Part shown: positions 44,498 to 61,570 of the stretch, in pieces
Layout: the number at the start of each line of letters is the position of its first letter
How positions within the stretch are numbered: the stretch's first letter is position 1
Assembly (NCBI RefSeq): GCF_003269295.1
Contig: NZ_QLTT01000004.1
Coordinates: 496,001-560,000, forward strand
Direction: 5' to 3'
Origin: Lentzea atacamensis
GTDB lineage: Bacteria; Actinomycetota; Actinomycetes; Mycobacteriales; Pseudonocardiaceae
DNA length: 64,000 bases
Position numbers and translations under genes: made by a program
The notes under the pieces: generated by a model
The model's database searches: none
Told to the model about the DNA's origin: nothing
The model's input: the letters and a program-made list of their open reading frames with translations, nothing else

Positions 44498-45922
44498 TCA
44501 CGGCGTCGTCCTGCGTGGTTCCGAACGCCGGAACGCAGGGGTTGGCCCGGCGGTCACCACACCGTCCCGCACCTGTTCCAACCGGCAGCGGAACGGTCGC
44601 AGCATGGCGGGTGCCTCGGTCAGCCGGTAACCGGGCACCTGCTCCGGGTTCTTGGCGATCCCCGCGAGCGTCTCGGCCACGTACTCCAGGTGGCTGCGCG
44701 TGTAGACGCGTCGCGGGATCGCCAGGCGCACCAGCTCGAACGGCGCGGGCGTGATCAGCTCGCCGGACTCGTCGATCTCCCCGAGGTAGAGCGAACCCAG
44801 TTCGGCACAACGGATTCCGCCCGCGAGGTAGAGCTCCGACGCGAGCGCGTGACCGGTGAACCGGTGCGGCGGGATGTGCGGCAGCAGCCTGCCCGCGTTG
44901 AGGTAGACGGCGTGCACGCCCGTCGGCGTCACACTGTCCACACCGGCCTCACGGGCGCACTCGGCGAGGTAGGCGGTGGCGTCCGCGCGCTCCCGCAGGT
45001 ACAGCGGGTCGGTGACCTCCATCAGGCCCTGCGCGCACATGTCGAGGTCACGGCCGGAAAGCCCGCCGTAGGTGCGAAACCCCTCGGTGGCGATCAGCAG
45101 GAGCTCGCACCGCTTGGCGAGCTCCTCGTCGTTCAGCCCGAGCAACCCTCCGATGTGGACGATGCCGTCCTTCTTCAGGCTGGCGACGCATCCGTCGGCC
45201 AGCCGGAACGCGAGCTTCGCGACGTCGCGCGGGCTGTGGCCGCGGTACTTCTCCTCCCGCTGCGTCACCAGCCACGCGTTCTCGGCGAACCGGGCCGCGT
45301 CGAGGATGAACGGCACCCCGTGGCGGCGGCACAGCGCGCTCGCCGCCTCGATGTTCGCCATCGACACCGGCTGGCCGCCACCGCCGTTGTTGGTGATCGT
45401 CATGAGCACCAGGCCGACGTCGTCCGGTCCGCTCAACGCCGCTTCGAGCGCGACGAGGTCGATGTCGCCCTTGAACGGTTCGTCGCTGTCGAGGTCCGCG
45501 GCCAGCGGGCACGGGAGGTCCCGCACCACTCCGCCCGCCAGCTCCACGTTCGCGCGCGTCGTGTCGAAGTGCGTGTTGCTGATGGAGATCTGACCGGGCT
45601 TCAGCAGCGCGTTGAACAGGATCCGTTCCGCGGCCCGGCCCTGGTGGACCGGGAAGATGTACCGGTAGCCGGTCAGCTCCTCCGCCACGTCGCGGAACCG
45701 GGAGAACGAGCGGGCACCCGCGTACGTCTCGTCGCCACGCATGCCAGCCGCCTGCTGCTCCGCCGACAGCGCGCCGGTGCCGGAGTCGCTCAGCAGGTCG
45801 ATCGTCACGTCGTCCGCGGTGAGGTTGAACTGGTTGTACCCGCCCTCGGCGTACCGGCGTTCCCGGTAGTCGCGGGTCGTGATGGGGATGGGCTCGACGA
45901 CCTTGATCCGGTACGGCTCCAC
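44498..45922 (-). CDS. tnaA: tryptophanase-like C-C lyase
   Basis: A 474-residue PLP enzyme of the tryptophanase/tyrosine phenol-lyase family, which splits aromatic amino acids into the ring, pyruvate and ammonia. Seen: MRGDETYAGARSFSRF, FPVHQGRAAERILF, FILDAARFAENAWLV (Arg 211) and ADGCVASLKKDGIVHIGG with the PLP Lys (251). At the substrate-ring position near the end, tryptophanase has His and tyrosine phenol-lyase Phe (LRHFTA / LRFFTA); here it is Pro 443 (LRPFRC), and there is a 20-residue tail. With the prenyltransferase upstream on the same strand, the likely substrate is a prenylated tryptophan, giving prenylindole. ATG 45922. Confidence 0.9.
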   Translation of the reverse strand: MEPYRIKVVEPIPITTRDYRERRYAEGGYNQFNLTADDVTIDLLSDSGTGALSAEQQAAGMRGDETYAGARSFSRFRDVAEELTGYRYIFPVHQGRAAERILFNALLKPGQISISNTHFDTTRANVELAGGVVRDLPCPLAADLDSDEPFKGDIDLVALEAALSGPDDVGLVLMTITNNGGGGQPVSMANIEAASALCRRHGVPFILDAARFAENAWLVTQREEKYRGHSPRDVAKLAFRLADGCVASLKKDGIVHIGGLLGLNDEELAKRCELLLIATEGFRTYGGLSGRDLDMCAQGLMEVTDPLYLRERADATAYLAECAREAGVDSVTPTGVHAVYLNAGRLLPHIPPHRFTGHALASELYLAGGIRCAELGSLYLGEIDESGELITPAPFELVRLAIPRRVYTRSHLEYVAETLAGIAKNPEQVPGYRLTEAPAMLRPFRCRLEQVRDGVVTAGPTPAFRRSEPRRTTP

Positions 45923-46095: not shown

Positions 46096-47202
46096 CTAGA
46101 GCGACATTGCTTTGGTGCGGGTGCGGGTGCGGGGTGGTGTTACGTCGTATGCCTCGGACGACAGGTAGACCGTGACTCCTGGGCGAGGGCGGCCCAGGCG
46201 CAGCGACACGTGGGCGATCAGCCCGACGCCGTCGGCGAGCGGACGGCGGACCATGCTCGCCAGCGCCATGACGAACGGCGCGGTGTCCATCCCGCACCTG
46301 GCCATGATCGCGAGAACGCGCTCACACGCTTCCAGGTCGTCCTGCACGTAGTCCCGCACGGGGATGTAGAGCGAGTAGCCGCTCGGCCGGTCGACGTCGC
46401 CGGACAGGAAGGTGTAGCTGGACATCAGCGGGCGCCGGTCGAACGGTCCCGTGCCGCCACCGGCCAGCGCGACGACGTCCGCCAGGAGCTCGGGATCCAC
46501 GTCGGGGGCCGCGGCGGCCGCGCGCACCACGTCCGGGATCTCGGCGGCGTCGTGCGACACGTAGGTCTTCACCCTCGCGCGGTCCGCCTCCGTCAGGTCG
46601 AGGGCGAAGAACGAGAACCGGTCGAGGCCTTCACGTTGCAGCGCGTGGCCGGCCACCGTCGGGTGGGCTGCGCCGAGGCCGAGCCGCCGCAGTGCCTCGC
46701 TGACAAGGGAGGTCGCGCTCTCACGGCCACGCACCTCCGGGTTGAGGTAGACCTTGATCGCGGGTGCCGCGTCCCTGTTGACGATCAGCGAGTACCAGAA
46801 CGAGAACGCTCCCTGCGGATCGTCCGGGAGGAACAGGTCGCGCACCTGGTCCAGCCGCCGGCGGTCCAGCCGGTGCTGGGCCGTCAGCCGGTCGAGCACA
46901 CCGAGCGCCGCGGCGAGGTTCGCGGCCGGGCCCGGCTGCTCGGCGAGCGACTCGACGATCATGCGGACCGCGGGTGGCTCGTTTTGGGCCAAAGCCACCG
47001 AGAATTCGACCGGTGTGTGGTCGTCGGCGACGAAAGACGGCCAATGGGGGACCGCCGTGAGCGGCCTCAGGCAGCCGGGGCCCATTGCCTCAGCCAGCAG
47101 TTTCGTCGATCTTTCCGAGGACTCTGCTAATCCGACCGCGCGCAGAAGGGTCTGGAGTTGTGCAACGGCGAAATCGCGTATTGAGACATCTGGCACGCTC
47201 AA
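46096..47202 (-). CDS. DMATS-type aromatic prenyltransferase
   Basis: A 368-residue ABBA-fold prenyltransferase of the tryptophan dimethylallyltransferase family, adding a dimethylallyl group to an indole ring in the cytoplasm. Seen: PVEFSVALAQNEPPAVRMIV with the base Glu, basic diphosphate-binding motifs IKVYLNPEVRG, RFSFFALDL and RVKTYVSHD, and C-terminal SGYSLYIPVRDYV and GVTVYLSSEAY. Bacterial relatives (IptA, SCO7467) prenylate tryptophan at ring C5 or C6. TTG 47202 has GGAGA at ideal spacing; GTG 47196 is the alternative. It lies 173 bp before the tryptophanase gene, with a 16-bp palindrome upstream. Confidence 0.88.
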   Translation of the reverse strand: MSVPDVSIRDFAVAQLQTLLRAVGLAESSERSTKLLAEAMGPGCLRPLTAVPHWPSFVADDHTPVEFSVALAQNEPPAVRMIVESLAEQPGPAANLAAALGVLDRLTAQHRLDRRRLDQVRDLFLPDDPQGAFSFWYSLIVNRDAAPAIKVYLNPEVRGRESATSLVSEALRRLGLGAAHPTVAGHALQREGLDRFSFFALDLTEADRARVKTYVSHDAAEIPDVVRAAAAAPDVDPELLADVVALAGGGTGPFDRRPLMSSYTFLSGDVDRPSGYSLYIPVRDYVQDDLEACERVLAIMARCGMDTAPFVMALASMVRRPLADGVGLIAHVSLRLGRPRPGVTVYLSSEAYDVTPPRTRTRTKAMSL

Positions 47203-48003
47203 GACAGGGGTCTCCTGATCGGCCGGGGAATCAGGGCGGGGTGCAATCCGGTCGGGGTGGAATCGCGGGGTGAATTCTCTCAACCAGCTACATGGCCAGG
47301 TCAAGGGCCGGAGGGGTTGCGTGCGACACTCTGAGCTGTGATCAAGGTTGCACTGCACGGCCTATTGACTGTCATCGAATTCGATGATGGGTGAGGCATT
47401 CCGGGGGATGTGAATGATGACGCAAAGTGCGGAATTGCGCGAGTAGCCGGCAGTGTGATAAGTCGGACTGTTGCATCTTCAACGAAGACTTATTGTGACC
47501 TTCTGGGCCTCGTGGTAGGCGATTGGAATCACGGCGCGAACCTGTGTGGTCCTCAATTTCCGGCTGTGTTCCCGGTGACCGTACCGTGCCCGGCTCTCGC
47601 CGGCGTGACGCGCTGTGCGCGCGGTTGACGGCTCGCGGCAGGGGGTGGCAACGTCGTTCACGTGATCTTCTGACACCCGCACCGACACGTGTCTGCGGCC
47701 CGCGCTGGTTGAGCGCTGTGTGCCCGGCGTGTTCTCCGTTTCCGATCTTCCTTCGGCGGTGGGTGGCTCATGACGAACATTCCTTTCCGCATGCCGTGAT
47801 CTGGTGAAGTCGTACGGCCTGGACGGACGTGCCGGGTCGGATTCGGACTGTCTGATGTGGACAGCGAGCAGGCCGGAGATGGCCTGCAAGCCGGTCGCGC
47901 CGGCTGAAACCTCTGATACGCCAAGAGAAAGGACGAGGGAGGTGTTCCACAACGAAACGCACGGCGACCTGTCCCTTCTCTTCACCCGCGTTCGGAGGCT
48001 TCC
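47203..48003. other. 801-bp divergent region between prenyltransferase and ABC-F genes
   Basis: Contains a 16-bp perfect palindrome (47372-47387) and a possible upstream reading frame at 47942-48079 overlapping the ABC-F start. No full gene is supported. Base composition is more AT-rich between 47340 and 47520 than in the flanking genes, as expected for promoters. Confidence 0.55.
47372..47387. promoter_or_regulatory. 16-bp palindrome, likely operator
   Basis: TCATCGAATTCGATGA is a perfect palindrome 170 bp upstream of the prenyltransferase start. It is AT-rich against a GC-rich background and next to TTGACT on the plus strand. A dimeric regulator site is the simplest reading; the regulator gene is unknown. 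Confidence 0.72.
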
Positions 48004-48079
48004 ATGTCAGGTCAGCTCACAATTCGGCCGGTCAGCAAGACCTTCGCCCACCGCCGCGTGCTCGACGCCGTCTCGCTGA
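47942..48079 (+). CDS. possible upstream reading frame of the ABC-F gene
   Basis: GTG 47942 (after AAAGGACGAGGG) opens MFHNETHGDLSLLFTRVRRL and stays open for 45 codons, ending 76 nt inside the ABC-F gene. Resistance ABC-F genes often have leader frames whose translation senses stalled ribosomes. The peptide has no recognisable stall motif and the frame inside the ABC-F gene looks like a shadow. Confidence 0.3.
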   Translation: MFHNETHGDLSLLFTRVRRLPCQVSSQFGRSARPSPTAACSTPSR

Positions 48080-49626
48080 CGGTCCGAGCCGGCGAAAAGG
48101 TCGGCGTAGTAGGAGAGAACGGTTCCGGCAAGTCGACGCTGCTGCGGCTGATCACCGGGCAGGAGACGCCGGACGACGGCGAGATCACCGTGGTCGCGGA
48201 AGGCGGTGCCGGGCACCTCGGACAGGTGCTCGCACTGCCGGACGACGCCACGGTGGGTGACGCCGTCGACGCCGCGCTCGTCGAGATCCACGTGCTGGAG
48301 CAGCGGATCAAGGCCGCGGAGCAGGAGCTCGGCACGGCCGGTTCCGCGGAGCGGGCGGCGTACGGCGAGCTGCTCACCGCGTTCGAGCTGCGGGACGGCT
48401 ACTCGGCCGACGCCAGGGTCGAGGCCGCCATGTCGGAGCTCGGCATCGGCGATCTCGGCTCGGCACGGCGGCTCGGCACGCTGTCCGGTGGGCAGCGGGC
48501 CCGGCTGGCGCTCGCCGGAGTGCTGTCGGCGCAAGCGGAACTGCTTCTGCTCGACGAGCCCACGAACCACCTAGACCACCAGGCGCTGGCCTGGCTGGAA
48601 GACCGGTTGCGGGCACACCGCGGCACCCTTTTCGTGGTGACGCGCGACCGTCTGCTGCTGGATCGGGTGGTGGTCACCGCGATCGTCGAGGTCGACGGCG
48701 ACCGTCGCACGATCTCCCGCTACGGCAACGGTCGTGCCGGCTACCTCGCCGAGAAGCGGGTGGCCAGGCAGCGCTGGGAACAGGCGTACGCGGAGTGGGC
48801 CGGCGAGATCGCGCGCTGGACCGAGTGGCGCGGCACGACGGCGTACCGCGTCGCGCCTGGCCGGGCGATCAAGGACCACAACAAGTGCAAGTACAACGGC
48901 GACGGGCGGCGCGTGCAGGCGTCGATCTCGACGCGGGTGCGCAGCGCGTCGGAACGGCTGGAGCGGCTCCTGGCCGATCCAGTGCCGAAACCGCCGGATC
49001 CGTTGCACCTCAACGCACCGTTCGACGCGGCGGTGCGGGAGGGCCCGGTGCTCGAACTGGCGGGCGTCCGCGTCGGCGACCGGCTGCGCGTGGACGAGCT
49101 CGTCGTGGCCGCGGGCCGGCGGCTGCTCGTGACCGGTCCGAACGGGGCGGGCAAGTCGACGTTGCTCGACGTGCTGGCGGGGACGCTCCGGCCGGAGCGC
49201 GGCACCGTCACGCGGCACGGCGTCGTCGGCTACCTGCCGCAGGAAACCGTGGTGCGGCACCCGCGCCGGACGGTGCTCGCGGCGTTCGCCTCCGGCAGGC
49301 CGGGGACGCCGGAGAACCACGCCGAGCAGCTGGCATCGCTGGGACTGTTCCGCGAGGCGGACTTCGTGACTCCGGTCGGAGCGTTGTCGATCGGGCAGCG
49401 GCGACGGCTGGCGCTCGCGCGGTTGCTGCGGCAGGAGTCGGACGTCCTGCTGCTGGACGAACCGGCGAACCACCTGTCGCTCGCGCTGGTGGAGGAGCTC
49501 GAAGCCGCGCTCGCCGGTTACTCCGGTGCCGTGGTCGTGGTGTCGCACGACCGGTTGCTGCGGGGGCGGTGGCAGGGCGAGGAGCTGGCGCTGAACGACG
49601 GTCGGGTGTTGCTCGCGGCAGCGTGA
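48004..49626 (+). CDS. ABC-F ribosome-protection type protein
   Basis: A 540-residue cytoplasmic protein with two ATPase domains and no membrane segments. Seen: domain 1 Walker A VVGENGSGKSTLLRL, signature LSGGQRARLAL, Walker B LLLLDEPTNHLD; interdomain helices with a basic tip (KDHNKCKYNGDGRRVQASIS); domain 2 Walker A VTGPNGAGKSTLLDV, signature LSIGQRRRLAL, Walker B LLLDEPANHLS. The H-loop of domain 1 is TRDRLLLD rather than SHDR; domain 2 keeps SHDR. This class (TlrC, OleB, Vga, Msr) frees ribosomes from antibiotics and is often self-resistance in producers. ATG 48004 follows GGAGG. A terminator follows the stop. Confidence 0.9.
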   Translation: MSGQLTIRPVSKTFAHRRVLDAVSLTVRAGEKVGVVGENGSGKSTLLRLITGQETPDDGEITVVAEGGAGHLGQVLALPDDATVGDAVDAALVEIHVLEQRIKAAEQELGTAGSAERAAYGELLTAFELRDGYSADARVEAAMSELGIGDLGSARRLGTLSGGQRARLALAGVLSAQAELLLLDEPTNHLDHQALAWLEDRLRAHRGTLFVVTRDRLLLDRVVVTAIVEVDGDRRTISRYGNGRAGYLAEKRVARQRWEQAYAEWAGEIARWTEWRGTTAYRVAPGRAIKDHNKCKYNGDGRRVQASISTRVRSASERLERLLADPVPKPPDPLHLNAPFDAAVREGPVLELAGVRVGDRLRVDELVVAAGRRLLVTGPNGAGKSTLLDVLAGTLRPERGTVTRHGVVGYLPQETVVRHPRRTVLAAFASGRPGTPENHAEQLASLGLFREADFVTPVGALSIGQRRRLALARLLRQESDVLLLDEPANHLSLALVEELEAALAGYSGAVVVVSHDRLLRGRWQGEELALNDGRVLLAAA

Positions 49627-49761: not shown

Positions 49762-49828
49762 CTTCCGTTCCCGGTCGCGGCAGGACAGCGTGTGCGGCGT
49801 TCTGTTGATCAACTGGGAGGAGCGGACC

Positions 49829-49990
49829 GTGAAGCGTTTCGCACAGCTGGCCGGTGAGAAGCTCGTCGGACTGGTGCTGCCGAAGGTCGATGCCGGTGCC
49901 TGCGTGCCGGAGCACGGGCAGTGTTGCAAGCGGGGCTACCGCTTCAACTGCAACGGCATCTGCTCGTCGGTGAGCAGCAGCTGCAGGTGA
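49829..49990 (+). CDS. cysteine-rich peptide precursor
   Basis: A 53-residue peptide, too small for normal annotation. The start is GTG 49829 after GGGAGG at 8-nt spacing; an in-frame extension to 49739 has no such site. It opens MKRFAQLAGEKLVGLVLPKV, then a C-terminal half with six Cys (ACVPEHGQCC, KRGYRFNCNGICSS, SSSCR) in the order C-x6-CC-x7-C-x3-C-x6-C. An even number of Cys fits three disulfides in a knotted core. The front half is an amphipathic leader, not a classical signal peptide; cleavage could fall near DAGA. The next genes are a redox fusion, ABC exporter and signal peptidase. It resembles no class I can name. Confidence 0.82.
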   Translation: MKRFAQLAGEKLVGLVLPKVDAGACVPEHGQCCKRGYRFNCNGICSSVSSSCR

Positions 49991-50054
49991 CGCGTTGAGC
50001 CGGGGTGCCGGTGGGTCTCCCGCCGGCACCCCTCACTCGCTGGGGAGGCCTGAA

Positions 50055-50993
50055 GTGCTCGACCTGTTCGCTCGCGTGCTGCTCGCCGCTGTCTTCCTCG
50101 CGGCGTTCGCCGGCAAAGTCCGCACCCGGCAGGGGTTCGCAGAGTTCCGCGACTCGATCGGCGCTCTGGCGCCGTGGTTGCCCGCACAGCCGGTCGCCAT
50201 CGCGGTTCTCGCCGGCGAGGCAGCTGCCGTCGTGCTGCTCGCGGTTCCCGGAACGGGACTCGGCTACGCACTCGCCACCGGGTTGCTGGCGGCGTTCTGC
50301 GGCGGGATCGTCCTCGCCATCCGCAGCAGGAAAGCCGTGCGCTGCAAGTGTTTCGGCGCGGGCGGCGACGTGCTCGGACCCAAGCACCTCGTGCGCAACG
50401 GACTGCTGATCGCTGTTGCTGTCACCGGCGCGTTCGTGACGCCGCCGGCATCCTGGGAGGAACCGATGACCCTGCTCACGATCGCCGTCGTCCTGCTCGC
50501 CGTCGTGGTCGCGGTGCACGTGCTGTTCACGTACGGGCTGGTGGCCAGGGTCCGCGAGCTGCAGGAGCGGTCAGGGCCGCCGCGCAACCAGAACCTGCCG
50601 CAGCCCGGCCTGGTGATCCGGCCGTTCTCGGTCACCGGCACCGACGGCGCGCTGTTCACCGAGGCCGACCTCGACGGACCGGTGCAGGTCGGGTTCTTCT
50701 CGGTCGGCTGCGGGCCGTGCCGTTCCCTCACCGACGCGCTGCTGGCCGACCCGCCCGCCGCCCGGTTCGTGTCCGTTGTGGACGGCGACCCGACCGATCC
50801 CGAAGCCACCCGGCGGCTCGTGGAGAAGGTCAGTGCGCTGGGGCGGGTCGCGGTCATCGGCACGGACGACCCGGTGCTGTCGGCGTTCGAGGTCATGGCG
50901 TTCCCGACGCTGGTGTACACGCACGGCGGCGTGGTGACCGCGTCCGGCATCAAACTCGACGACTTCGCCGGTGTGCCGGCGCCGGTGGCATGA
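50055..50993 (+). CDS. MauE-thioredoxin fusion protein
   Basis: A 312-residue membrane redox protein. Seen: a MauE/DoxX-like part (about 1-135) with four helices (LFARVLLAAVFLAAFAGKVR, GLGYALATGLLAAFCGGIVL) and the CKCFG motif of redox-active MauE proteins; a fifth helix (LTIAVVLLAVVVAVHVLFTY); and a TlpA/MauD thioredoxin fold (about 175-312) with active site SVGCGPCRSL and AFEVMAFPTLV (cis-Pro). MauE and MauD help form disulfides in methylamine dehydrogenase. Here they probably oxidise the six-Cys peptide encoded upstream. GTG 50055 follows GGGGAGG. An internal GGGAGG-ATG at 50466 could also make the thioredoxin part alone. Confidence 0.88.
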   Translation: MLDLFARVLLAAVFLAAFAGKVRTRQGFAEFRDSIGALAPWLPAQPVAIAVLAGEAAAVVLLAVPGTGLGYALATGLLAAFCGGIVLAIRSRKAVRCKCFGAGGDVLGPKHLVRNGLLIAVAVTGAFVTPPASWEEPMTLLTIAVVLLAVVVAVHVLFTYGLVARVRELQERSGPPRNQNLPQPGLVIRPFSVTGTDGALFTEADLDGPVQVGFFSVGCGPCRSLTDALLADPPAARFVSVVDGDPTDPEATRRLVEKVSALGRVAVIGTDDPVLSAFEVMAFPTLVYTHGGVVTASGIKLDDFAGVPAPVA

Positions 50994-52771
50994 TCAGGAA
51001 CGCCGTCGCGGCTCTCGCGCTGCCGTTCCGGGCCACGCCGCTGATCGCCACCACCACGCTCGTGCTCACGGTGGTCGCGGGCGCGGCACCGGCGAGCGGG
51101 GCGTGGTTGACGATGCTGCTGGTCGACGAGCTCACCTCGGGCACGGCGAGTGCCGGCAGGGCGGCGTTCCTCGCGGTCACCTCCGCCCTCGTCGGCGGGT
51201 CCGCGATCGCGTTGCTCTACCTCGGCGGGCACCTCGGAGAGGTGGTGCAGCAACGGGTCGCGCTGACCGTGGAGAGCAGGCTGTTCCAGCGGGTCGCGAC
51301 GCTGCGGGGACTGCGGCAGATCGAGGATCCCGCGTTCCACGACCGGTTGCGGCTCGCCGAGCAGGCGGCGCAGGAGGCACCCGGCACGATCTCGCAGTTC
51401 ACCCAGGAGCTCGTCAGGTCGCTCGTGTTGCTGGTGAGCTTCGCCGGTGCGTTGCTGGTGGTGTGGCCGCCGATGACGTTGCTGCTGCTGGCTTCGGTGG
51501 TGACGGCGGTGTTCGCGAGGCTGGCGACCGCACGGCGTGAGGCGGCCACGGAGGAAGCGTGGGTGGCGACCGACCGGCGGCGGCTCTTCTACCGTGCGTT
51601 GCTCACGGATGTGCGTGCGGCCAAGGAGATCCGGCTGTTCGGGCTCGGAGAGTTGTTGCACACCAGGATGGTCGGCTCGCTCGCGACGGTGTCGGGTGCG
51701 CGGCTGGCGGCGGCACGGCGGGGAACGCTGGTGCAGAGCGGTCTGGCGCTGCTCGGGGCTGTCGTGGCCGGGGCGGGCACGGTCGTCGTGGCGGTGAACG
51801 TGGTGTCCGGCCGGTCGTCGGTCGGCGATCTCGTGCTGTTCCTCGGTGCGGTCGCGGGAGTGCAGACCGGACTGTCCGGTGTGGTGCTGCAGCTCGGCGA
51901 GGCGGGCCGCGCAGTCAAGCTCTTCGGGTACTACCTCGACGTCGTCGACACCCGTGACGACCTGGCCGCGGGAACCGGTGTGCCGGCAGAGGCGACGATC
52001 GAGCTGCGGGACGTGTGGTTCCGCTATGCCGAGGACGGCCCGTGGGTGCTGCGCGGGGTCGACCTCACGATCCCTGCCGGCGCGGCCGTCGGACTGGTCG
52101 GTGTGAACGGCGCGGGCAAGAGCACGCTCGTGAAGCTGTTGTGCCGGTTCTACGACCCGCAGCGGGGCACGATCACGTGGGGCGGCGTGGATCTCCGCGA
52201 GCTGGACGTCGAGGAACTGCGCAGGCGGATCGGCGTGGTGTTCCAGGAGTTCATGGCCTACGACCTGACCGCGGCGGAGAACATCGGCATCGGCCAGGCG
52301 GACGCACTCGGCGATCGGGCGCGGATCGTCGCGGCGGCCGAGGTGGCGCGGATCGCGGACACGCTGCAGGCACTGCCCAACGGGTACGACACGGTGTTGT
52401 CCAGGACCCACGCGGATGAGGAGCGCACCGGCGTGACGTTGTCCGGCGGGCAGTGGCAACGGGTGGCGCTGGCGCGGTGCCTGATGCGCCGCGACGCCGA
52501 GTTGATGATCCTCGACGAGCCGACGTCCGGTCTGGACGCGGAAGGCGAGCACCGGGTGCACGACACGGTCAGGCGGCACGCGGAAGGGCGGACCAGGTTG
52601 CTGATCTCGCACCGGATGGCGGCACTGCGCGGCGCGGATCTCATCGTCACGTTGGTGGGCGGGCGGATCGTCGAGCAGGGCAGCCACGACGAGCTGATGG
52701 ACGCGGACGGCGAGTACGCGCGGCTGTTCCGGCTGCAGGCGGACGGGTACCAGGATGCGAGGGCCGGCTGA
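50990..52771 (+). CDS. ABC exporter (membrane-ATPase fusion)
   Basis: A 593-residue half-transporter. Seen: six membrane helices (1-330; for example LIATTTLVLTVVAGAAPASG, AFLAVTSALVGGSAIALLYL) and an ATPase domain (345-590) with Walker A GLVGVNGAGKSTLVKLLCRF, Q-loop VVFQEFMAYDLTA, signature GVTLSGGQWQRVAL, Walker B ELMILDEPTSGLD and H-loop LLISHRMA. It has no peptidase-39 domain, so leader cleavage must come from elsewhere, plausibly the next gene. The start overlaps the fusion-protein stop (ATGA), and the stop overlaps the peptidase start (TGATG). It likely exports the Cys-rich peptide. Confidence 0.92.
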   Translation: MIRNAVAALALPFRATPLIATTTLVLTVVAGAAPASGAWLTMLLVDELTSGTASAGRAAFLAVTSALVGGSAIALLYLGGHLGEVVQQRVALTVESRLFQRVATLRGLRQIEDPAFHDRLRLAEQAAQEAPGTISQFTQELVRSLVLLVSFAGALLVVWPPMTLLLLASVVTAVFARLATARREAATEEAWVATDRRRLFYRALLTDVRAAKEIRLFGLGELLHTRMVGSLATVSGARLAAARRGTLVQSGLALLGAVVAGAGTVVVAVNVVSGRSSVGDLVLFLGAVAGVQTGLSGVVLQLGEAGRAVKLFGYYLDVVDTRDDLAAGTGVPAEATIELRDVWFRYAEDGPWVLRGVDLTIPAGAAVGLVGVNGAGKSTLVKLLCRFYDPQRGTITWGGVDLRELDVEELRRRIGVVFQEFMAYDLTAAENIGIGQADALGDRARIVAAAEVARIADTLQALPNGYDTVLSRTHADEERTGVTLSGGQWQRVALARCLMRRDAELMILDEPTSGLDAEGEHRVHDTVRRHAEGRTRLLISHRMAALRGADLIVTLVGGRIVEQGSHDELMDADGEYARLFRLQADGYQDARAG

Positions 52772-53106
52772 TGTGGATCAGGGTGACGGTGCGGGGCAAC
52801 AGCATGTCGCCGACGTTGTCCGACGGGCAGAAGCTCGTGGCGCGCAGGCTCCTGAGGAGGAGCCCACGCCGCCACGAGGTGATCGTGTTCCGCGTCCCCG
52901 ACCCCGAGCTGCCGCACCGGATCAAGCGCGTCGCGGCCGTCGCGGGTGACGCCGTGCCGGACTGGCTCGCGGCCACGCTGCCCGGCACCTCGCACGTGCC
53001 GGCCGGTTTCGTGGCCGTGTCAGGCGACAACCCGCGGTCGCAGGACTCCCGTCAGCTCGGCCTGGTCGACTGCCGCGACATCGTCGGCACCGTTCGTGGT
53101 GCGTGA
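52771..53106 (+). CDS. minimal S26 signal peptidase
   Basis: A 111-residue S26-family Ser/Lys peptidase. Seen: catalytic Ser in VRGNSMSPTLSDGQKLV, catalytic Lys in HRIKRVAAVAGD, and the SGDNPRSQDSRQLGLVD box. It is less than half the length of housekeeping signal peptidases and has no membrane anchor, so it probably works with a partner, perhaps the ABC exporter it overlaps. The likely job is removing the leader of the Cys-rich peptide. The last 55 bp overlap the antisense XRE gene. Confidence 0.88.
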   Translation: MWIRVTVRGNSMSPTLSDGQKLVARRLLRRSPRRHEVIVFRVPDPELPHRIKRVAAVAGDAVPDWLAATLPGTSHVPAGFVAVSGDNPRSQDSRQLGLVDCRDIVGTVRGA

Positions 53107-53357
53107 TCGAGCCGCTGCCACCTCGCCCGCTGGCAGGCGACGACCCAGCGCTGCCGCCAGCTCGTCGCGTCACCTCCGCACGCCTGCGCGATCGCCAGCA
53201 CCGTGTCGAGCTTCGGAAAACGGCGACCGGTCAACGCGTCGTGCAACGTGCTGCGGGCACAACCGGTGCGGCGTGCCAGCTCGCGATAGGACAGGCCGAC
53301 CAGCAGCCGCAGCTCGTCCAGGTCGACGCCCAGTTCCGCCCTACCCCCTGTGGTCAT
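53052..53357 (-). CDS. small XRE-family regulator
   Basis: A 101-residue DNA-binding protein. Seen: helix-turn-helix ELRLLVGLSYRELARRTGCA followed by RSTLHDALTGRRFPKLDTVL, and a Trp-rich tail (SWRQRWVVACQRARWQ). ATG 53357 overlaps the SdpB stop (ATGA), so it is translated with the Sdp operon. Its C-terminal 55 bp overlap the plus-strand signal peptidase gene tail to tail. It probably regulates one or both peptide operons; no SdpI/SdpR immunity pair is present, so it is the only regulator candidate in the operon. Confidence 0.82.
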   Translation of the reverse strand: MTTGGRAELGVDLDELRLLVGLSYRELARRTGCARSTLHDALTGRRFPKLDTVLAIAQACGGDATSWRQRWVVACQRARWQRLDHAPRTVPTMSRQSTRPS

Positions 53358-54280
53358 TCAGTCTCCCGTGTCGTCGGTCCTCCGTCCCTCTCCTCTTCAG
53401 CCCACTGCATGGTTACCTGAGCTCGATCGAGTTCGCCACTGTGCTCTGAACGGCCGCTGCTCGCCGCCGCCACCAGGCTGATCATCACTAGTCCGAAGCT
53501 CGCGAGGCCGAGTGCCAGGATGATTCCGCCGTGCAGCACAACGGCCAGTGCGAGGCCGACGCGGCGCACGGCCGAGTTGCCGAACACGCAGATCACGATC
53601 GCGGATTCGAGCAGGATCGTGCCCCACGTGATAGCGGGTGTGAGAACGCCTGAATCGAGGAACGGCACGAGTTCCGGGGCGGCTCCGAAATACGCGTCCT
53701 GAAGAACGAAGTGCATGGCGCTGCCGTCGCGCCATTCCGGTTCGACGAGTTTGAGCCACACTGCCTGCCCGTAGACGATGACCACCTGCAAGCGAATCAC
53801 CAGATGGGCGGTATAGGAGGTTCCTATCCACCACGCGGGCAATGGCGTCGCCGGGCGTCTCCAATGCCAGATCCGATCATCGCCGAGACACAGCGGGATG
53901 AGCAGCAGGGTGAGGACCCTGGCCACGTTCTCACCGCCGTTGGGCACGTGGATCGCGACGGCGAGGCTGAAAGTGACGTACCAGTGCGGAATGCAGGTCC
54001 AGCGGGGCCGATAGCCCGAGATCACGAGCGCCAGCACGGCGATTGTTACTACCCGGAAAATTGTCAGCGCAACCGGAGAGGAACTGACGCACCACAGCGA
54101 AAGGGTGCGCAGACCGTCGCACCGGGGTCCCGTTGGGCCGTTCGGTACAGCGGGGAAGAGATCGGCGTCGGACGTGAACACGAGGACGCTGAGTTCGGCG
54201 AGCGCGACCAGCGATCGGGCGGCGCCGAGGGTGATCGTCCGCGGCTCGAACGCCAGCGCGCGGGCTACCGGGGTGCGCAC
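53354..54280 (-). CDS. sdpB: SdpB-family membrane protein
   Basis: A 308-residue membrane protein of the SdpB (HTTM-like) family, needed in Bacillus to mature the SDP cannibalism toxin. Seen: seven to eight helices (LGAARSLVALAELSVLVFTS, FRVVTIAVLALVISGY, WYVTFSLAVAIHVPNGGENV, VARVLTLLLIPLCLGDDRIW, GTILLESAIVICVFGN, LALAVVLHGGIILALGL) and the WLKLVEPEWRDGSAMHF motif. GTG 54280 overlaps the SdpA stop by 16 nt. With SdpA it probably matures the short secreted peptide encoded upstream. Confidence 0.87.
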   Translation of the reverse strand: MRTPVARALAFEPRTITLGAARSLVALAELSVLVFTSDADLFPAVPNGPTGPRCDGLRTLSLWCVSSSPVALTIFRVVTIAVLALVISGYRPRWTCIPHWYVTFSLAVAIHVPNGGENVARVLTLLLIPLCLGDDRIWHWRRPATPLPAWWIGTSYTAHLVIRLQVVIVYGQAVWLKLVEPEWRDGSAMHFVLQDAYFGAAPELVPFLDSGVLTPAITWGTILLESAIVICVFGNSAVRRVGLALAVVLHGGIILALGLASFGLVMISLVAAASSGRSEHSGELDRAQVTMQWAEEERDGGPTTRETE

Positions 54281-54825
54281 TGGAGGTCCGCGACCGCGAC
54301 GCGCACGACGCGCCTGGCCGGCCTGTCCCCGTCAGGGCGCTCCGCCGTGAACACGGTCGGTCCGCAGGGCACTTCTGGAGAGAAGTAGCTGTTCAGACGT
54401 GCTCGAGGAGCACTGGTGATGGCGGCGGCGCAGTCCGAGACCGTCGCCGCCGCGCAGTCCTGCCAGTGCCCGGCCGGCAGTTCGTCCACCGTGGCGAGCA
54501 GCCGGACCAGGTCGGCGTACGACCCGCGGTCCAGGCCACGCAGGTGGTCCCGGTCACCCGCGGTCCGGGTGATCGGGACGAACGTGCCGGTGGGCTCGTC
54601 GTGGTGGTACGCGACGATGAACTCGCGCCCCGCCGCGTCGGTGAAGAGCTGCATGCCCTGCGGCCAGAACAGCCGGAGCGTGTCCCGCTGGGCGCTGACC
54701 CGGTGCCCGACGACGTCGGCGGGCAACTGGGCGGCGGTGGCAGCGAGAAAAATCATTCCGAGTGCGGCACCGGTGAAGGCCATGCCTTTCGCGGCACGTG
54801 CCCCGGCGTCCATTTCGGTGGGCAT
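54265..54825 (-). CDS. sdpA: SdpA-family protein
   Basis: A 186-residue protein of the SdpA antimicrobial peptide system family. Seen: an N-terminal membrane helix (GMAFTGAALGMIFLAATAAQ), the family block LRLFWPQGMQLFTDAAGREF, GLDRGSYADLVRLLATVDEL PAGHWQDC region, and RRVVRVAVADLQC at the end. In Bacillus, SdpA and SdpB are both needed to produce active SDP toxin from SdpC. Here no SdpC homologue exists; the precursor candidate is the 48-residue peptide 21 bp upstream. The start could be ATG 54825 or 54813. Confidence 0.86.
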   Translation of the reverse strand: MPTEMDAGARAAKGMAFTGAALGMIFLAATAAQLPADVVGHRVSAQRDTLRLFWPQGMQLFTDAAGREFIVAYHHDEPTGTFVPITRTAGDRDHLRGLDRGSYADLVRLLATVDELPAGHWQDCAAATVSDCAAAITSAPRARLNSYFSPEVPCGPTVFTAERPDGDRPARRVVRVAVADLQCAPR

Positions 54826-54846: not shown

Positions 54847-54993
54847 TCAGCAGCCCGTTGTGCAGGGCCCGAGGATCGCCTGGGTCTTGGTCACCGATTC
54901 CGTCGGCCCGGTGTCCGAAGCTGCACTGACAATCGTTACTGCAGCAAGTGCCACGGCAGCCAGAAGTGCGCCGAAAAAGCCTGCCCGTCTCAT
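54847..54993 (-). CDS. short secreted peptide precursor of the Sdp operon
   Basis: A 48-residue secreted peptide. Seen: Sec signal (MRRAGFFGALLAAVALAAVT, cleavage near VSAA) and a mature part of about 23 residues (SDTGPTESVTKTQAILGPCT then TGC) with two Cys separated by Thr-Thr-Gly at the very end. ATG 54993 follows GGAGGGG; an in-frame extension to 55146 lacks a signal peptide at its start. It is 21 bp before sdpA. In Bacillus SDP the two Cys form a disulfide; a terminal CxxxC ring is the analogous guess. No homology to SdpC is visible. Confidence 0.78.
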   Translation of the reverse strand: MRRAGFFGALLAAVALAAVTIVSAASDTGPTESVTKTQAILGPCTTGC

Positions 54994-55253
54994 TTTCTTG
55001 ATCCCCTCCACGTGCGACGAGGAACCTCCCTCCCTCGTCACTGCGGAGGGGAATATCGCAGCGTCTGTCCAGTTCGTCAACCTGGTAACGCGCCGTGCGC
55101 GAACGGCTCCCGAGAGTGATTCGACAGTTCTGAATCGGTACAGCAACCATGTTGTATCTCAGGCGCGCACGGCGACTCCTAAAGGTGATATCTGATGGCA
55201 CTGCAGTATCGACGGCTCCACCAGAAGCAGTCCCGAGTGGAAAGTTCCGGCCG

Positions 55254-58200
55254 ATGGAATATCGCATTTTGGGCCCGCTGGAACTGCGGTCCGCGGGCCG
55301 CTCCGTCGCGCTCGGAGGCGAGCGTCAGCAGAAGCTGCTGGTGCTGTTGCTGCTCGGCCACGGCTCGGTCGTGACGTTCGACCGCCTGATCGACGAGCTG
55401 TGGGAGGACCCGCCGCAGACCGCGCGCCGTCAGGTGTGCAACGCCGCCGCTGCGGTGCGCCGAGTCGTGTCGCACCACGGTGGCGACCTGATCACGAGCA
55501 CCCACGGCTATCGGCTGGAACTGCAGGACGCGACGCTCGACGCGGATGTGTTCCGGTCCCACGTGGCCGGCGCGGAAGCCGCCGTGTCCCAAGGAAAACC
55601 GGCTCAGGCCGTGGCGCTGCTGCAGAACGCGCTCGACCTGTGGCGGGGCCCGGTGCTGGCCGGCCTGGGCTCGGCCTCCATCGACGCGGCCTCCTCCGGC
55701 CTGGGCGAACAGCGTTTGCAGGCCGTGGAACGGCTGGCCGAACTGCGCCTCGACCTGGGTGAGGTCACCTCGCTGCTGGGGCACCTCGCGGTTCAGGTGG
55801 CCGAACACCCGCTGCGGGAGTCGTTGCGCGCCACGCTGATGCGCGCTTTGCGGAAGGCGGGCCGCCGCGGCGACGCGCTGACCGTCTTCGAGGAGGGCCG
55901 TCAGGCGCTGGCCGAGGAGCTGGGCACCGATCCCGGCCCAGAGCTCCAGCGCCTGCACGCCGAACTGCTGACCGACTCGCCGGCTGTCACCTCGCGAAGA
56001 TCGTCGCTGCCGATCGACATCCCGGACTTCACCGGTCGCGAGTCCGAGGTGGACAGACTGGTGGACGCGATCGGCACACGGGCGATCGTGACCATCGAGG
56101 GAATGGGTGGCATCGGCAAGACGGCGCTGGCCGTGCACGTCGCCCACCGCCTGGCCGGCCGCTTCCCGGACGGTCACTGCTACGTCGACCTCCGCGGCTT
56201 CACCGCGGGCACCACGCCGATGACGACCGGCGCCGCGCTGGACCAGCTGCTGCGCCAGATCGGCGTGCCACCGGAGAACATCCCCGCCGACCCGGCCGCC
56301 CGCCGCGACCTGTGGCTGGCCGAGGTGTCCGCCCGGCGTGTGCTGGTGGTGCTGGACAACGCGGCCGACGCGATCCAGGTCCGCCCGCTGCTGCCCGGCG
56401 CCTCCAGCTCGGTGGTGATCATCGCCAGCCGCTGCCACCTGATGTCGATCGAGGGCGCCATCCCCGTCCCGTTGGACGTCCTGCCCGCCGACGACGCGGC
56501 GGCGCTGTTCCGCCGCATCGCGGGACCCGCTCGTGCCGACGCCGAACCGGACGCCGTCGCCGACGTGGTCTCGTTGTGCGGCAGGCTTCCGCTGGCGATC
56601 CGCATCGCCGCGTCCCGTTTCTGCCGCAGGCCCAGCTGGACCGTGGCGCACCTCGCCGGCCAGCTGCGGGACCGCCAGCGCCGCACCCGCGCCTTCACCG
56701 CGAACGACCTGAGCGTCGCCGGTGTGCTCGCCCTGTCCTACCACCACCTCACCGCCGACCGCCAAGAGCTGTTCCGCCTGCTGTCCCTGGTGCCCGGCGC
56801 CGACTTCGACGCCTGCACCGCGGCCGCGCTCGCCGCGGTGCCGGAGGACGACGCCCAGGACGTCCTGGAGGAACTGGTCGAGTGCAACCTGCTGATGCAA
56901 CGCGCCGCCGACCGCTACTGCCTGCACGACCTGGTCCGCGACTGCGCCCGTGACCTCGCGGACGCCGCACACGCACCGTCCGAACTGGACACCGCACGGC
57001 ACCGCCTGTTCGACTACTACCTGCATCTGGCGGACGTCCGCGGCCGCCGCAGCATGCCGGGCAGGCGCGGGTTCGAGCCGGACGTGAAGTGGCTGCCGGA
57101 ATCCGTGCCCGTGTCGGCCTCCGAGGAGGACGACATCCGCCAGCTGCGGGCGGAGTACAAGAACATGGTGGCGGTGGCGGACTACGCCAGCGCGCACGGA
57201 TGGCACGTGCACGCCTGGCAGCTGCCGTGCCTGCTCCTGCCTTTCCTGACCCGTGTCGGCCTGCGGTCCGGTGTGCTCGAGCTGTCGCGCAACGCACTGG
57301 CGGCGGCTCAGGCCCTGGGCGACCGGCGCGGGGTGTCGATGGCGCTGACGAACATCGCGTTCGCGTTGCGCGAGGCCGGCCGCAACAGCGAGGTGCTGGA
57401 GGTCCTGGACCAGGCCATCACGATCAGCCGTGAGCTCGGCGACCTGCCCGCCGCGGTCGGTGGGCTGCGCGACCTGGGCGCGTCGCAGGTGCAGGCGGGC
57501 ATGCTGGGCGCGGCGGCCGCCAGTTTCACCGAGGCGGTGGCGTTGGCCCGGTCCATCGGCGACCAGCGGGCCGAGGTGAACTCGCTCATCGACCTGGGGT
57601 ACGTCGACTGCAACCTCGGGCGGTACGAGGCGGCGGCCGGCCGGTTCCACGACGCGCTCGCGATGCACCAGCGCGACGGCTACACCGGCGGCGAGGTCGT
57701 GGTGCTGATCAACCTGGGGTGGCTCGCGCAGCTGCGCGGCAGGGACGTGGAGGCGGTCGAGGCGCTGGAACGGGCGGTGCGGCTCAGCCGGGAGATCGGG
57801 ATGATCCGCGGCGAGGGCATCTCCCTGGCCTGGCTCGGGGTGACGTATCGGCGGGTCGGTCGTCTCGCGGACGCGCTGCAGGTGGGTCTGGAAGCCCTGG
57901 AGTCCGCGCGCCGCATGGATCTGCGGGAGCCGGAAGGCGACGCGTTGAACGGCCTCGCCGAGACCTACCTGGCCGCCGGGCGGCTGCGTGAAGCCGAGGC
58001 GATGCTGTGGGCCGCCGAGGAACTGGCGCTCGCCGGTGCGTTGCCGATGGTGCGGGCGCGGGCACACGAGGGACTGGCTCACGCCGCTGCCCTGCGCGGC
58101 GACCAGGAGTGGGCTCGTACGCACTGGGAACGGGCTGTCGAGCTGTACCCGGCCGGTGCGGTGGACGCGGAGAACCCTCGCGCGCATCTGGCTGACGCCG

Positions 58201-58268
58201 CTGCGACCTGCATGCGGTGCGTCTGCGGCACCAGCACTCAACGCGTGGCACTCGCCTCAGCAGGCTAA
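55254..58268 (+). CDS. AfsR/SARP-family STAND regulator
   Basis: A 1004-residue regulator. Seen: N-terminal OmpR-like winged helix (ILGPLELRSAGRSVALGGER, FDRLIDELWEDPPQTARRQV), BTAD domain (VFRSHVAGAEAAVSQGKPAQ), NB-ARC ATPase (TIEGMGGIGKTALAVHVAHR Walker A, VLVVLDNAADAIQV Walker B, LPLAIRIAASR), and a C-terminal TPR array (about 680-980, eight or more repeats). SARP proteins activate antibiotic gene clusters. ATG 55254 (MEYRILGPLE) begins the domain; an extension to 55149 is unlikely. It is divergent from the Sdp operon (260 bp) and upstream of the NRPS genes, so either may be a target. Confidence 0.92.
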   Translation: MEYRILGPLELRSAGRSVALGGERQQKLLVLLLLGHGSVVTFDRLIDELWEDPPQTARRQVCNAAAAVRRVVSHHGGDLITSTHGYRLELQDATLDADVFRSHVAGAEAAVSQGKPAQAVALLQNALDLWRGPVLAGLGSASIDAASSGLGEQRLQAVERLAELRLDLGEVTSLLGHLAVQVAEHPLRESLRATLMRALRKAGRRGDALTVFEEGRQALAEELGTDPGPELQRLHAELLTDSPAVTSRRSSLPIDIPDFTGRESEVDRLVDAIGTRAIVTIEGMGGIGKTALAVHVAHRLAGRFPDGHCYVDLRGFTAGTTPMTTGAALDQLLRQIGVPPENIPADPAARRDLWLAEVSARRVLVVLDNAADAIQVRPLLPGASSSVVIIASRCHLMSIEGAIPVPLDVLPADDAAALFRRIAGPARADAEPDAVADVVSLCGRLPLAIRIAASRFCRRPSWTVAHLAGQLRDRQRRTRAFTANDLSVAGVLALSYHHLTADRQELFRLLSLVPGADFDACTAAALAAVPEDDAQDVLEELVECNLLMQRAADRYCLHDLVRDCARDLADAAHAPSELDTARHRLFDYYLHLADVRGRRSMPGRRGFEPDVKWLPESVPVSASEEDDIRQLRAEYKNMVAVADYASAHGWHVHAWQLPCLLLPFLTRVGLRSGVLELSRNALAAAQALGDRRGVSMALTNIAFALREAGRNSEVLEVLDQAITISRELGDLPAAVGGLRDLGASQVQAGMLGAAAASFTEAVALARSIGDQRAEVNSLIDLGYVDCNLGRYEAAAGRFHDALAMHQRDGYTGGEVVVLINLGWLAQLRGRDVEAVEALERAVRLSREIGMIRGEGISLAWLGVTYRRVGRLADALQVGLEALESARRMDLREPEGDALNGLAETYLAAGRLREAEAMLWAAEELALAGALPMVRARAHEGLAHAAALRGDQEWARTHWERAVELYPAGAVDAENPRAHLADAAATCMRCVCGTSTQRVALASAG

Positions 58269-58534
58269 CCACCAGCCAGATCCTCCGCGCCTGGCTCCGA
58301 TGGCGTCTGCAAGGACCACCAGCCCAACATCAACACGCACTTTTCTACTGCCAACAGGGGTCGTCACGATCAAGAGTTGGTGGTACTTGCAGACGTCTGT
58401 GACAGGCGGCTGCTGGTCAGCGCGCCGGAACGTGCGTGCATCGGTCGTCGATGCGGGACGGATGCACGGTGTTGGTGCACTCGTCCCGACGCCGGATTCC
58501 GCCCCGGCGCACGGCGAGGAAGTGGTGCCAGAAG

Positions 58535-61500: not shown

Positions 61501-61570
61501 GATGAACGAGATCGGCGTCCGGCCCACCGAACCGGACCTGTTCGGCAGACCTGTTCTTCAGGTCTCCTGA
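58535..61570 (+). CDS. MalT-like STAND regulator with C-terminal SARP domain
   Basis: A 1011-residue regulator with reversed domain order: ATPase first (Walker A VVVVKAGPGWGKTTSVAAWA; VLVVDDAGALDGDGARLIEA), TPR region (about 320-760), then a C-terminal OmpR-like winged helix (VRTLGGFQVLRDGVPVPGAL, LWQSKKARDLLKILAANRGR, RPQLVDLLWPDDLSDR) and BTAD domain (about 890-1000). The winged helix marks it as a SARP rather than a LuxR. ATG 58535 fits the LVDRPALTARLDTAA opening. It ends before a strong terminator, so the NRPS operon has its own promoter, which this protein may activate. Confidence 0.9.
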   Translation: MSQPALPARLVDRPALTARLDTAAGHKVVVVKAGPGWGKTTSVAAWAATRRACWLSAGDTSLDRLSRGLLRALRQRLPRLPVELITSQADAVADLVCGLLDVHLDEPLVLVVDDAGALDGDGARLIEALCLRSPELFSLVLLTRGELGFALPADLCEIDSRELAFTGEEVAALVGADAAGVVRARTAGWPAAVTLYREALSTGCAVPQEDGGDVLVRLAASVLAGEPEPVRELLRAIALLGRVSIALCVALGFTDARDTLPELTRRGLLSGDRPEWSVLEPIGVLLRRDTGGEEVRHRAAVFCERTGAHAEALRHLVEAKRWDLVAQLLLRRDEQIVAAGGADAVLEALEHLEIDDQRLHLVQGFARQHKGDWLGALHSYEQASGKVLRPCLAWRMGQLHALTGQPERAVDLFERTVFDDVASLDEVRLLSLAVRWFRETGRHAQARKLAGRCELAARRCGGHAAKAWSSKAFGFLAAHDGDRVAFEMHYGQAADGARRSGNRMLELTIRTERAWFLAAETSPADALAELGEVVVLGRQAGLVEPDCHHTRALANTRLGRFDAALADADRAGWGVKGLVIRAEVHRRRGEPGQAQAFLDEALAIPGTDPLRILAKATLARVLASENPATARELADEAVADAENLRMWQVPALLARGWVALLAGDRERAREDAAAARALAGRRGDRAGLADALQLAAGTSEKPAVALLAEAAMVWQAAGDEVGALTAKLASARLTGVDVPRFEDELRGHGVRTDVPMADVLGTGLPRTARIAVRTLGGFQVLRDGVPVPGALWQSKKARDLLKILAANRGRPVPRPQLVDLLWPDDLSDRTANRLSVLLSTLRNVLSVSADAEPLVATRDTVALDLSLVDLDVAAFFTTANAALVAHRRNDPAAHRLLIDADELHLGEFLAEEPYEQWAIQVREEVRGRHTAVLRALAQVPDPEQQVGYLTRLLELDPYDESAHVRLVKALRAAGRHGEARRRYEVYLGQMNEIGVRPTEPDLFGRPVLQVS

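Follow-up and report, generated by a model that had tools for sequence, protein, structure and literature searches.

A four-gene operon of Lentzea atacamensis predicted to make a disulfide-rich peptide, and its relatives

Described systems and the Lentzea locus

Few bacterial disulfide-rich peptides have been studied so far. In class II bacteriocins with C39 ABC exporters, the leader is removed around export and the core carries disulfides. Among ribosomally synthesised and post-translationally modified peptides (RiPPs), decRiPPter (Kloosterman et al. 2020) named three candidate Streptomyces families with MauE, one of them also with MauD; each has a precursor of at least eight Cys, and a role in RiPP modification is suggested in the parts of that paper compared here (PMC7794033). 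Its strict filter, according to the same parts, demanded a transporter, a peptidase and a regulator (PMC7794033). Class I lasso clusters, such as those of siamycin/MS-271, sviceucin and humidimycin, encode a DoxX-type membrane protein and a thioredoxin-domain protein, as set out in excerpts of two papers (PMC9266682, PMC7168211). By term search, the main text of a review of RiPP leader proteases contains neither S26 nor signal peptidase (PMC10885120). The present analysis concerns a four-gene operon within a 64,000-nucleotide stretch (the window) of the 9.3 Mb genome of the soil actinomycete Lentzea atacamensis (contig NZ_QLTT01000004.1, positions 496,001 to 560,000), whose products very probably make, mature and export a small disulfide-rich peptide.

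The operon lies on the forward strand. Its first gene (49829..49990, GTG start at 49829, TGA stop) encodes a 53-residue precursor and is preceded at 49815..49822 by GGGAGGAG, on direct reading a strong ribosome binding site, as an earlier note on this DNA had claimed. A 24-residue leader (49829..49900), delimited by comparison with its leader family, has no Cys and ends in A-G-A, an A-x-A motif. The predicted 29-residue core CVPEHGQCCKRGYRFNCNGICSSVSSSCR (49901..49987), placed by alignment and AlphaFold, carries six Cys in the frame C-x6-CC-x7-C-x3-C-x6-C. There follow a MauE-thioredoxin-like fusion with a membrane-anchored thioredoxin (Trx) domain and the motifs CKCFG and CGPC (50055..50993), an ABC exporter with a transmembrane domain (TMD) and a nucleotide-binding domain (NBD) in TMD-NBD order (50990..52771) and a 111-residue S26 peptidase with Ser (GNSMSPTL) and Lys (KRVAAVAGD) motifs (52771..53106). 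The MauE-Trx and ABC genes overlap by ATGA at 50990, and the ABC and S26 genes by TGATG at 52771. All four frames, the overlaps and the Cys pattern agree with the earlier description.

Gene set and catalytic motifs are evident from sequence, as are the co-inheritance, leader/core split, even Cys numbers and A-x-A end detailed below. Profile scores are clear for MauE (PF07291, 70.6 bits, Pfam cut-off 27) and for the peptidase (Peptidase_S26, PF10502, 68.3 bits, cut-off 22.9), which together with its Ser and Lys motifs belongs to family S26. The thioredoxin half scores 11.6 bits, under the Pfam cut-off of 23.5, with CGPC present; the ABC protein scores 113.6 bits for ABC_tran and 23.3 for ABC_membrane, the latter under its cut-off of 28. 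A C39 peptidase is not among the Pfam matches of the ABC protein, in keeping with the earlier claim of an exporter without its own peptidase. The precursor has no match at E<=1 among Pfam and NCBIfam models.

As in the decRiPPter families, MauE stands here beside a predicted precursor. Those families are candidates, with no leader motif, S26, Cys parity or product mentioned in the text compared; their precursors have at least eight Cys, whereas the window precursor has six and its relatives 4-12 (PMC7794033). Our literature search, in which absence does not amount to absence from print, found nothing on the leader family, the pairing of S26 with A-x-A, Cys parity, an inside topology or scattered precursor libraries, and PMC7794033 was the only paper on MauE in RiPP clusters among the matches listed. 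The peptide class, proposed earlier as undescribed, is not wholly so, because decRiPPter had named MauE-containing candidate families in 2020. The locus looks like a representative of a class of RiPP-like, disulfide-rich peptides whose leader protease is of signal-peptidase type, and there is a fair chance that the system deserves its own class.

Class I lasso clusters are similar in that a redox pair accompanies the disulfide peptide and the ABC genes, in the excerpts compared (PMC9266682, PMC7168211). They differ in having lasso B and C enzymes and a macrolactam; the operon has neither, with S26 in place of B2, and neither lasso cyclase nor B enzymes occur among its genes, which are MauE-Trx, ABC and S26. 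The broader claim that no other RiPP enzyme lies nearby holds for the main genes checked, from about 40.4 to 61.6 kb. Leader removal around export and core disulfides would be shared with class II bacteriocins, but a double-glycine site and C39 domain are missing: the ABC protein has no C39 match, and the leader ends in A-x-A beside a separate S26 gene. Against signal peptidase I (TIGR02227, cut-off 47) the window S26 scores 67.1 bits, and against the Ni-SOD maturation protease (TIGR02754) 36.6 bits, under the cut-off of 63.25. It differs from both in its peptide cluster setting, in the window clade's lack of an anchor and in the positive charges that anchored relatives carry after the helix.

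The precursor and its relatives

Short genes are often spurious, and an HMM precursor match is missing at 16 of the best 80 ABC loci described below. The small frame could on these grounds be a chance or non-coding frame, with the three enzymes acting on another substrate, but this is very improbable given how the frame evolves. Across 13 precursor sequences, window included, codon positions 1, 2 and 3 hold 10, 12 and 23 variable sites, and 18 codons vary synonymously only, against 15 in which the residue changes. Within the frame DNA conservation runs at 0.93-0.97, and it drops sharply to 0.69 directly after the stop. Co-inheritance with the enzymes and 123 distinct relatives bearing the leader likewise argue for a real gene.

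Precursor searches of 390 genomes of the family gave a match at E<=0.01 in 28. Twelve are same-genus orthologues (E<1e-26), three are further matches with 73-88% identity (G214, G068, G376), nine are a shorter form with four Cys and four are weak, including a genuine diverged precursor in G238. For 20 family loci that were fetched, tblastn placed the precursor and all three enzymes together at 14. Two others (L044, L051) have the enzymes with their own diverged precursor, one (L036) is a broken operon copy, and at three with weak first matches (L043, L047, L048) the system is absent.

Within the genus, a precursor orthologue occurs in 12 of 24 genomes. Full-length MauE-Trx orthologues (79-100% identity) are present in 11, and S26 orthologues (81-100% identity) in the same 11, all of which have the precursor. 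The ABC gene, checked at fetched loci and not by a genus-wide search, is present at the six other genus loci of this type among them (L034, L035, L045, L049, L050, L053), at the first of which (G236, one of the 11) it is split into two frame-shifted pieces. The twelfth precursor carrier, G250 (L036/L235), has an interrupted MauE-Trx and a truncated ABC gene, and no S26 match was found in it; its leader reads ADA for AGA, so the A-x-A is lost while the precursor is kept. Such decay is what relaxed selection would be expected to look like.

The wider family was searched with the leader, after which genome contigs were scanned with the ABC protein and the best 80 loci retained. These come from Lentzea, Kibdelosporangium, Actinosynnema, Amycolatopsis, Embleya, Streptomyces, Micromonospora, Nonomuraea, Catellatospora and others, and two are from Myxococcaceae; the closest named relatives by ABC protein, at most 93% identical among the matches listed, are Lentzea species. 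A precursor was found at 64 loci, Trx at 74, S26 at 70 and MauE at 59. The co-occurrence of precursor and enzymes is not circular here, because the leader played no part in the ABC search. MauE, Trx and S26 occur together at 55 loci, 48 of them with an HMM-detected precursor; six more have one recognised by eye and post hoc (L141, L143, L166, L191, L195, L197), and the last, L171, is cut by a contig end. The earlier note had held that loss of the small frame from genomes keeping the other three genes would speak against the system; such a case appeared neither in the 24 genus genomes, followed by MauE-Trx and S26, nor at these 55 loci. The fusion of MauE with Trx marks the window clade; most of the other loci compared encode the two separately.

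Several relatives have a second cluster of similar kind, as does the genome of the window itself. About 58 kb downstream lies L051 (G000:C4:604275-608000), with its own precursor (L051:8276) that has a similar leader, eight Cys and a dissimilar core. Two of the genome's five S26 genes, and two of its three MauE matches above cut-off, fall within the two clusters of this kind. More distantly, a Myxococcaceae metagenome-assembled genome (MAG; L140) has a precursor with C-x6-CC-x8-C-x3-C-x5-C, nearly the Cys frame of the window; at the other Myxococcaceae locus (L136), neither a MauE match nor a precursor was found.

Across 396 genomes of the phylum, a leader search (A3, E<=0.001) returned the own genome only, which is a lower bound as up to 21 candidates were scored per genome. 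The ABC search of the same genomes (E<=1e-130, three candidates scored per genome) gave two matches, the own genome and G412, whose locus L236 had no HMM precursor at first and yielded one with eight Cys in a motif scan. Taken together with the ABC contig scan, these results suggest a system that is patchy rather than absent across the phylum. Among plasmids, the only record matched by the ABC protein (E<=1e-100) was an Embleya replicon of 5.7 Mb, and a search of phages with the precursor gave none.

What unites these loci is a shared leader of about 24 residues (..LGDRLL..VPK..A-x-A) followed by dissimilar Cys-rich cores. A conserved leader with variable Cys-rich cores beside MauE, Trx, ABC and S26 genes had been predicted from the window and was then found. 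Among 53 core-cluster representatives, mean pairwise identity is 0.41 for leaders and 0.28 for cores, with shuffled cores at 0.26, which is the conserved leader and variable core expected of RiPPs; the accompanying MauE/Trx, S26 and ABC proteins, whose functions are predicted, supply the candidate modifying enzymes and leader protease. The best-kept leader positions in these representatives are D -15 (43), R -14 (44), L -12 (45), P -7 (48), A -3 (50) and A -1 (52), although the A-x-A count is in part circular, since leaders of this kind went into the training of the leader model.

None of 123 distinct leaders contains Cys, and the cores carry an even number in 121 of 123 distinct precursors. 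Parity persists after clustering at 70, 50 and 40% identity (75/77, 51/53 and 32/33; p=2e-20, 1.6e-13 and 4e-9). By comparison, the residues S, G, Y, R, T, A and N each have an even count in 23-31 of the 53 core clusters, or about half. Including the set from genome G309 (below), 143 of 145 distinct precursors are even (p=2.4e-40). The first selection demanded at least three core Cys, and the count with G309 at least four; matches with E>10 (except L198) and an artefact (L123:7143) were excluded from the 123, three leader ends (L160, L133, L018) were set by hand, and a second L164 frame with nine Cys (E 250) and L169 with seven stand outside. The strongest reading of parity is that Cys are employed in pairs.

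The Cys could otherwise be modified or bind metal, with MauE and thioredoxin keeping them reduced inside the cell. Active sites predicted to be cytoplasmic would suit a reductase, and in the text compared decRiPPter terms the disulfide role of MauE speculative and the function of MauD unclear (PMC7794033). Parity of 143/145 is expected of pairs and is not required by metal sites or single-Cys modification, and we regard a reduced or otherwise modified core as improbable.

If the Cys of the window core are paired, its computed monoisotopic mass is 3173.29 with three disulfides, against 3179.34 reduced. An AlphaFold2 model of the precursor, built with 20 relatives, has a leader helix at low confidence and three short core strands; pLDDT is 81-88 for residues 31-53, 69 for residues 21-30 and 68.1 for the whole, with a pTM of 0.39. 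Six Cys in about 30 residues and three short strands recall the knottins, or inhibitor cystine knots. The common cystine-knot frame, however, has its Cys doublet at Cys 3-4, and in the window core it lies at 2-3. Foldseek gave no convincing match in the PDB (best E 7.2), and a PDB sequence search gave sub-threshold matches only. The best of these, to a segment of plant kiwellin (6fpg), covers the leader end and early core (49889-49966) at E 0.42 and is not significant.

One genome stands out for its many precursors. G309, a draft of about 110 contigs from the same family, has 54 leader matches at E<=10, of which the weak ones probably arose by chance. At the 30 best loci (L237-L266), at least 28 distinct precursors rich in Cys are spread over 21 contigs; 28/28 have even Cys (p=3.7e-9), as do two further precursors at the same loci. 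A single clear Trx-ABC-MauE set (C27, L233) has no adjacent precursor, as judged from the surroundings of the two best MauE places and with no genome search for ABC or Trx. The genome also has four small S26 genes in other places, and two of them adjoin leader matches (C44, C48), the C48 match (E 0.17) not being among the precursors read. Many precursors thus look as if they are served in trans. A shared promoter upstream of the 30 matches was not found: words of 9-10 bases are hardly more frequent than in shuffles, and an excess of 7-8-base words consists of GC-repeat words. Two pairs of upstream stretches are identical because their loci overlap.

The recurrence of this kit with ever-different peptides points to a large natural supply of disulfide-rich mini-proteins that has hardly been studied. 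The shared 24-residue leader makes the class searchable, with 145 sequences in hand, and the four genes form a compact cassette for producing such peptides. In a genome with at least 28 precursors, core diversification under one enzyme set is directly testable.

Membrane topology and the order of maturation

From these sequences, we infer that disulfides form in the core and that the MauE-thioredoxin redox pair makes or sorts them. The leader would be a shared handle, an amphipathic-looking helix rather than a Sec signal. The S26 enzyme, which the A-x-A motif fits, would cut after that motif where the leader ends, and the ABC exporter would move the peptide out of the cell, where its role, at a guess, is antagonism or signalling between microbes.

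The side of the membrane on which these steps take place was approached through the charge bias of membrane flanks, which is a tendency only. In 106 MauE sequences, mean net charge is +5.4 for the C-x-C loop and +3.9 for the first loop, against -0.1 for the N-terminus, -0.9 for the loop before the last helix and -1.7 for the tail, the helix 2-3 turn not being resolved in these averages. Among distinct sequences, the C-x-C surroundings reach a net charge of at least +3 in 81/88; the C-side flank of the single Trx helix is more positive in 77/80, with three equal, and that of the S26 helix in 73/85, with nine equal and three opposite. A further 18 S26 sequences had no helix at the cut-off used, and the S26 of the window clade has no helix, N-terminal membrane anchor or signal. 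Earlier counts of 90/97 (MauE), 86/90 (Trx) and 79/91 (S26) had included duplicates, that is, the same genome from two collections, which are also present in the MauE and ABC loop averages. In the ABC protein, mean charge is +2.7 at the N-terminus, +1.0 and +6.1 in the inner loops and -0.2 and -0.3 in the outer ones, which mostly agrees with the topology accepted for exporters; the stretch before the NBD has -1.1. The charge bias suggests that the MauE, Trx and S26 active sites lie on the cytoplasmic face.

Several points favour maturation outside the cell. Signal peptidase I classically cuts at A-x-A, oxidative folding normally takes place outside the cytoplasm, and MauD is usually drawn periplasmic. 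The ABC protein could export the intact precursor, which S26 would cut outside like an ordinary signal peptidase and whose disulfides would form there. The active site of the housekeeping signal peptidase is outside, yet as a control this protein failed to separate the two sides: its flanks in the own genome are equal, 0 and 0 (one of three genes matched). The charge bias, by contrast, places the S26, Trx and MauE sites inside, and the S26 of the window clade, having neither anchor nor signal, would be stranded there. Export of the precursor first is a serious possibility that we nonetheless hold to be somewhat short of even. We slightly favour a pathway in which the peptide folds and is cleaved before export, because the charge bias places redox and peptidase sites inside; our estimate for it fell from a little better than even to about even because the signal peptidase control, with charge 0 on both sides, is uninformative.

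Several observations, together with that equal-flanked control and the usual periplasmic drawing of MauD, weigh against the proposed pathway. Two counted precursors have odd Cys numbers (L113, L164), as does the by-eye precursor of L169, with seven. No recognisable precursor was found by HMM and motif scan at 8 of the best 80 ABC loci (L136, L154, L171, L196, L199, L202, L204, L205); L171 and L196 are shortened by contigs, and L154, L204 and L205 are also without MauE, Trx and S26. The operon of G236, given its split ABC frame, may be broken or misassembled. Lastly, thiol-redox genes in class I lasso clusters were dispensable for disulfides, according to the portion of the paper compared (PMC9266682).

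If the enzymes do face the cytoplasm, this would be an unusual route to disulfides, with a signal-peptidase fold on an unexpected side of the membrane. The predicted cytoplasmic-face redox and S26 sites look new, as does a many-precursor genome with one clear enzyme set. The fullest picture is that of a widespread, uncharacterised peptide class, oxidised and cut by cytoplasm-facing membrane enzymes and exported folded, in which, in at least one relative, one clear Trx-ABC-MauE set and a few small S26 genes elsewhere serve a scattered library of at least 28 hypervariable precursors, a bacterial parallel to the repertoires of venoms or prochlorosins. In its entirety this picture is tentative, and we would sooner expect some part of it to fail than all of it to hold.

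Neighbouring genes

Convergent with the operon and overlapping the end of the S26 gene is a helix-turn-helix (HTH_31) gene (53052..53357, reverse strand; Pfam 48.4 bits). It was matched at 16/16 of the scanned loci of window type, from 12 genomes of which some had been fetched twice, with no more than a fragment in the broken G250 copy, and at 0/10 other-type loci scanned. It is kept beside operons of this type and is likely a regulator.

Beyond it, also on the reverse strand, lies an SDP-type operon of SdpB (53354-54280; TIGR04033, 197 bits, cut-off 178), SdpA (54265-54825; Pfam 27.8 bits, cut-off 25) and a secreted-looking 48-residue peptide with the C-terminus GPCTTGC (54847-54993). Relatives of all three genes occur in G250 (73-78% identity), and SdpB fragments stand beside three other operons. 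SdpA and SdpB were considered as part of the system and rejected: of the other window-type operons scanned, only that of G250 has them complete, and the rest have fragments or nothing. Two large BTAD-domain regulators (55149-58268 and 58436-61570, forward strand) adjoin the SDP-type operon.

Directly upstream of the precursor gene, an ABC-F protein of TlrC/CarA/OleB/SrmB type (48004-49626, forward strand) scores 629 bits, under the cut-off of 800; a close relative (>55% identity) stands beside the operon in one other scanned genome only, G248 (L053 = L126). Further upstream, on the reverse strand, a tryptophanase-like beta-eliminating lyase (44498-45922) adjoins a tryptophan dimethylallyltransferase (46096-47358; Pfam 74 bits), a pair that looks like part of a prenylated-indole pathway.

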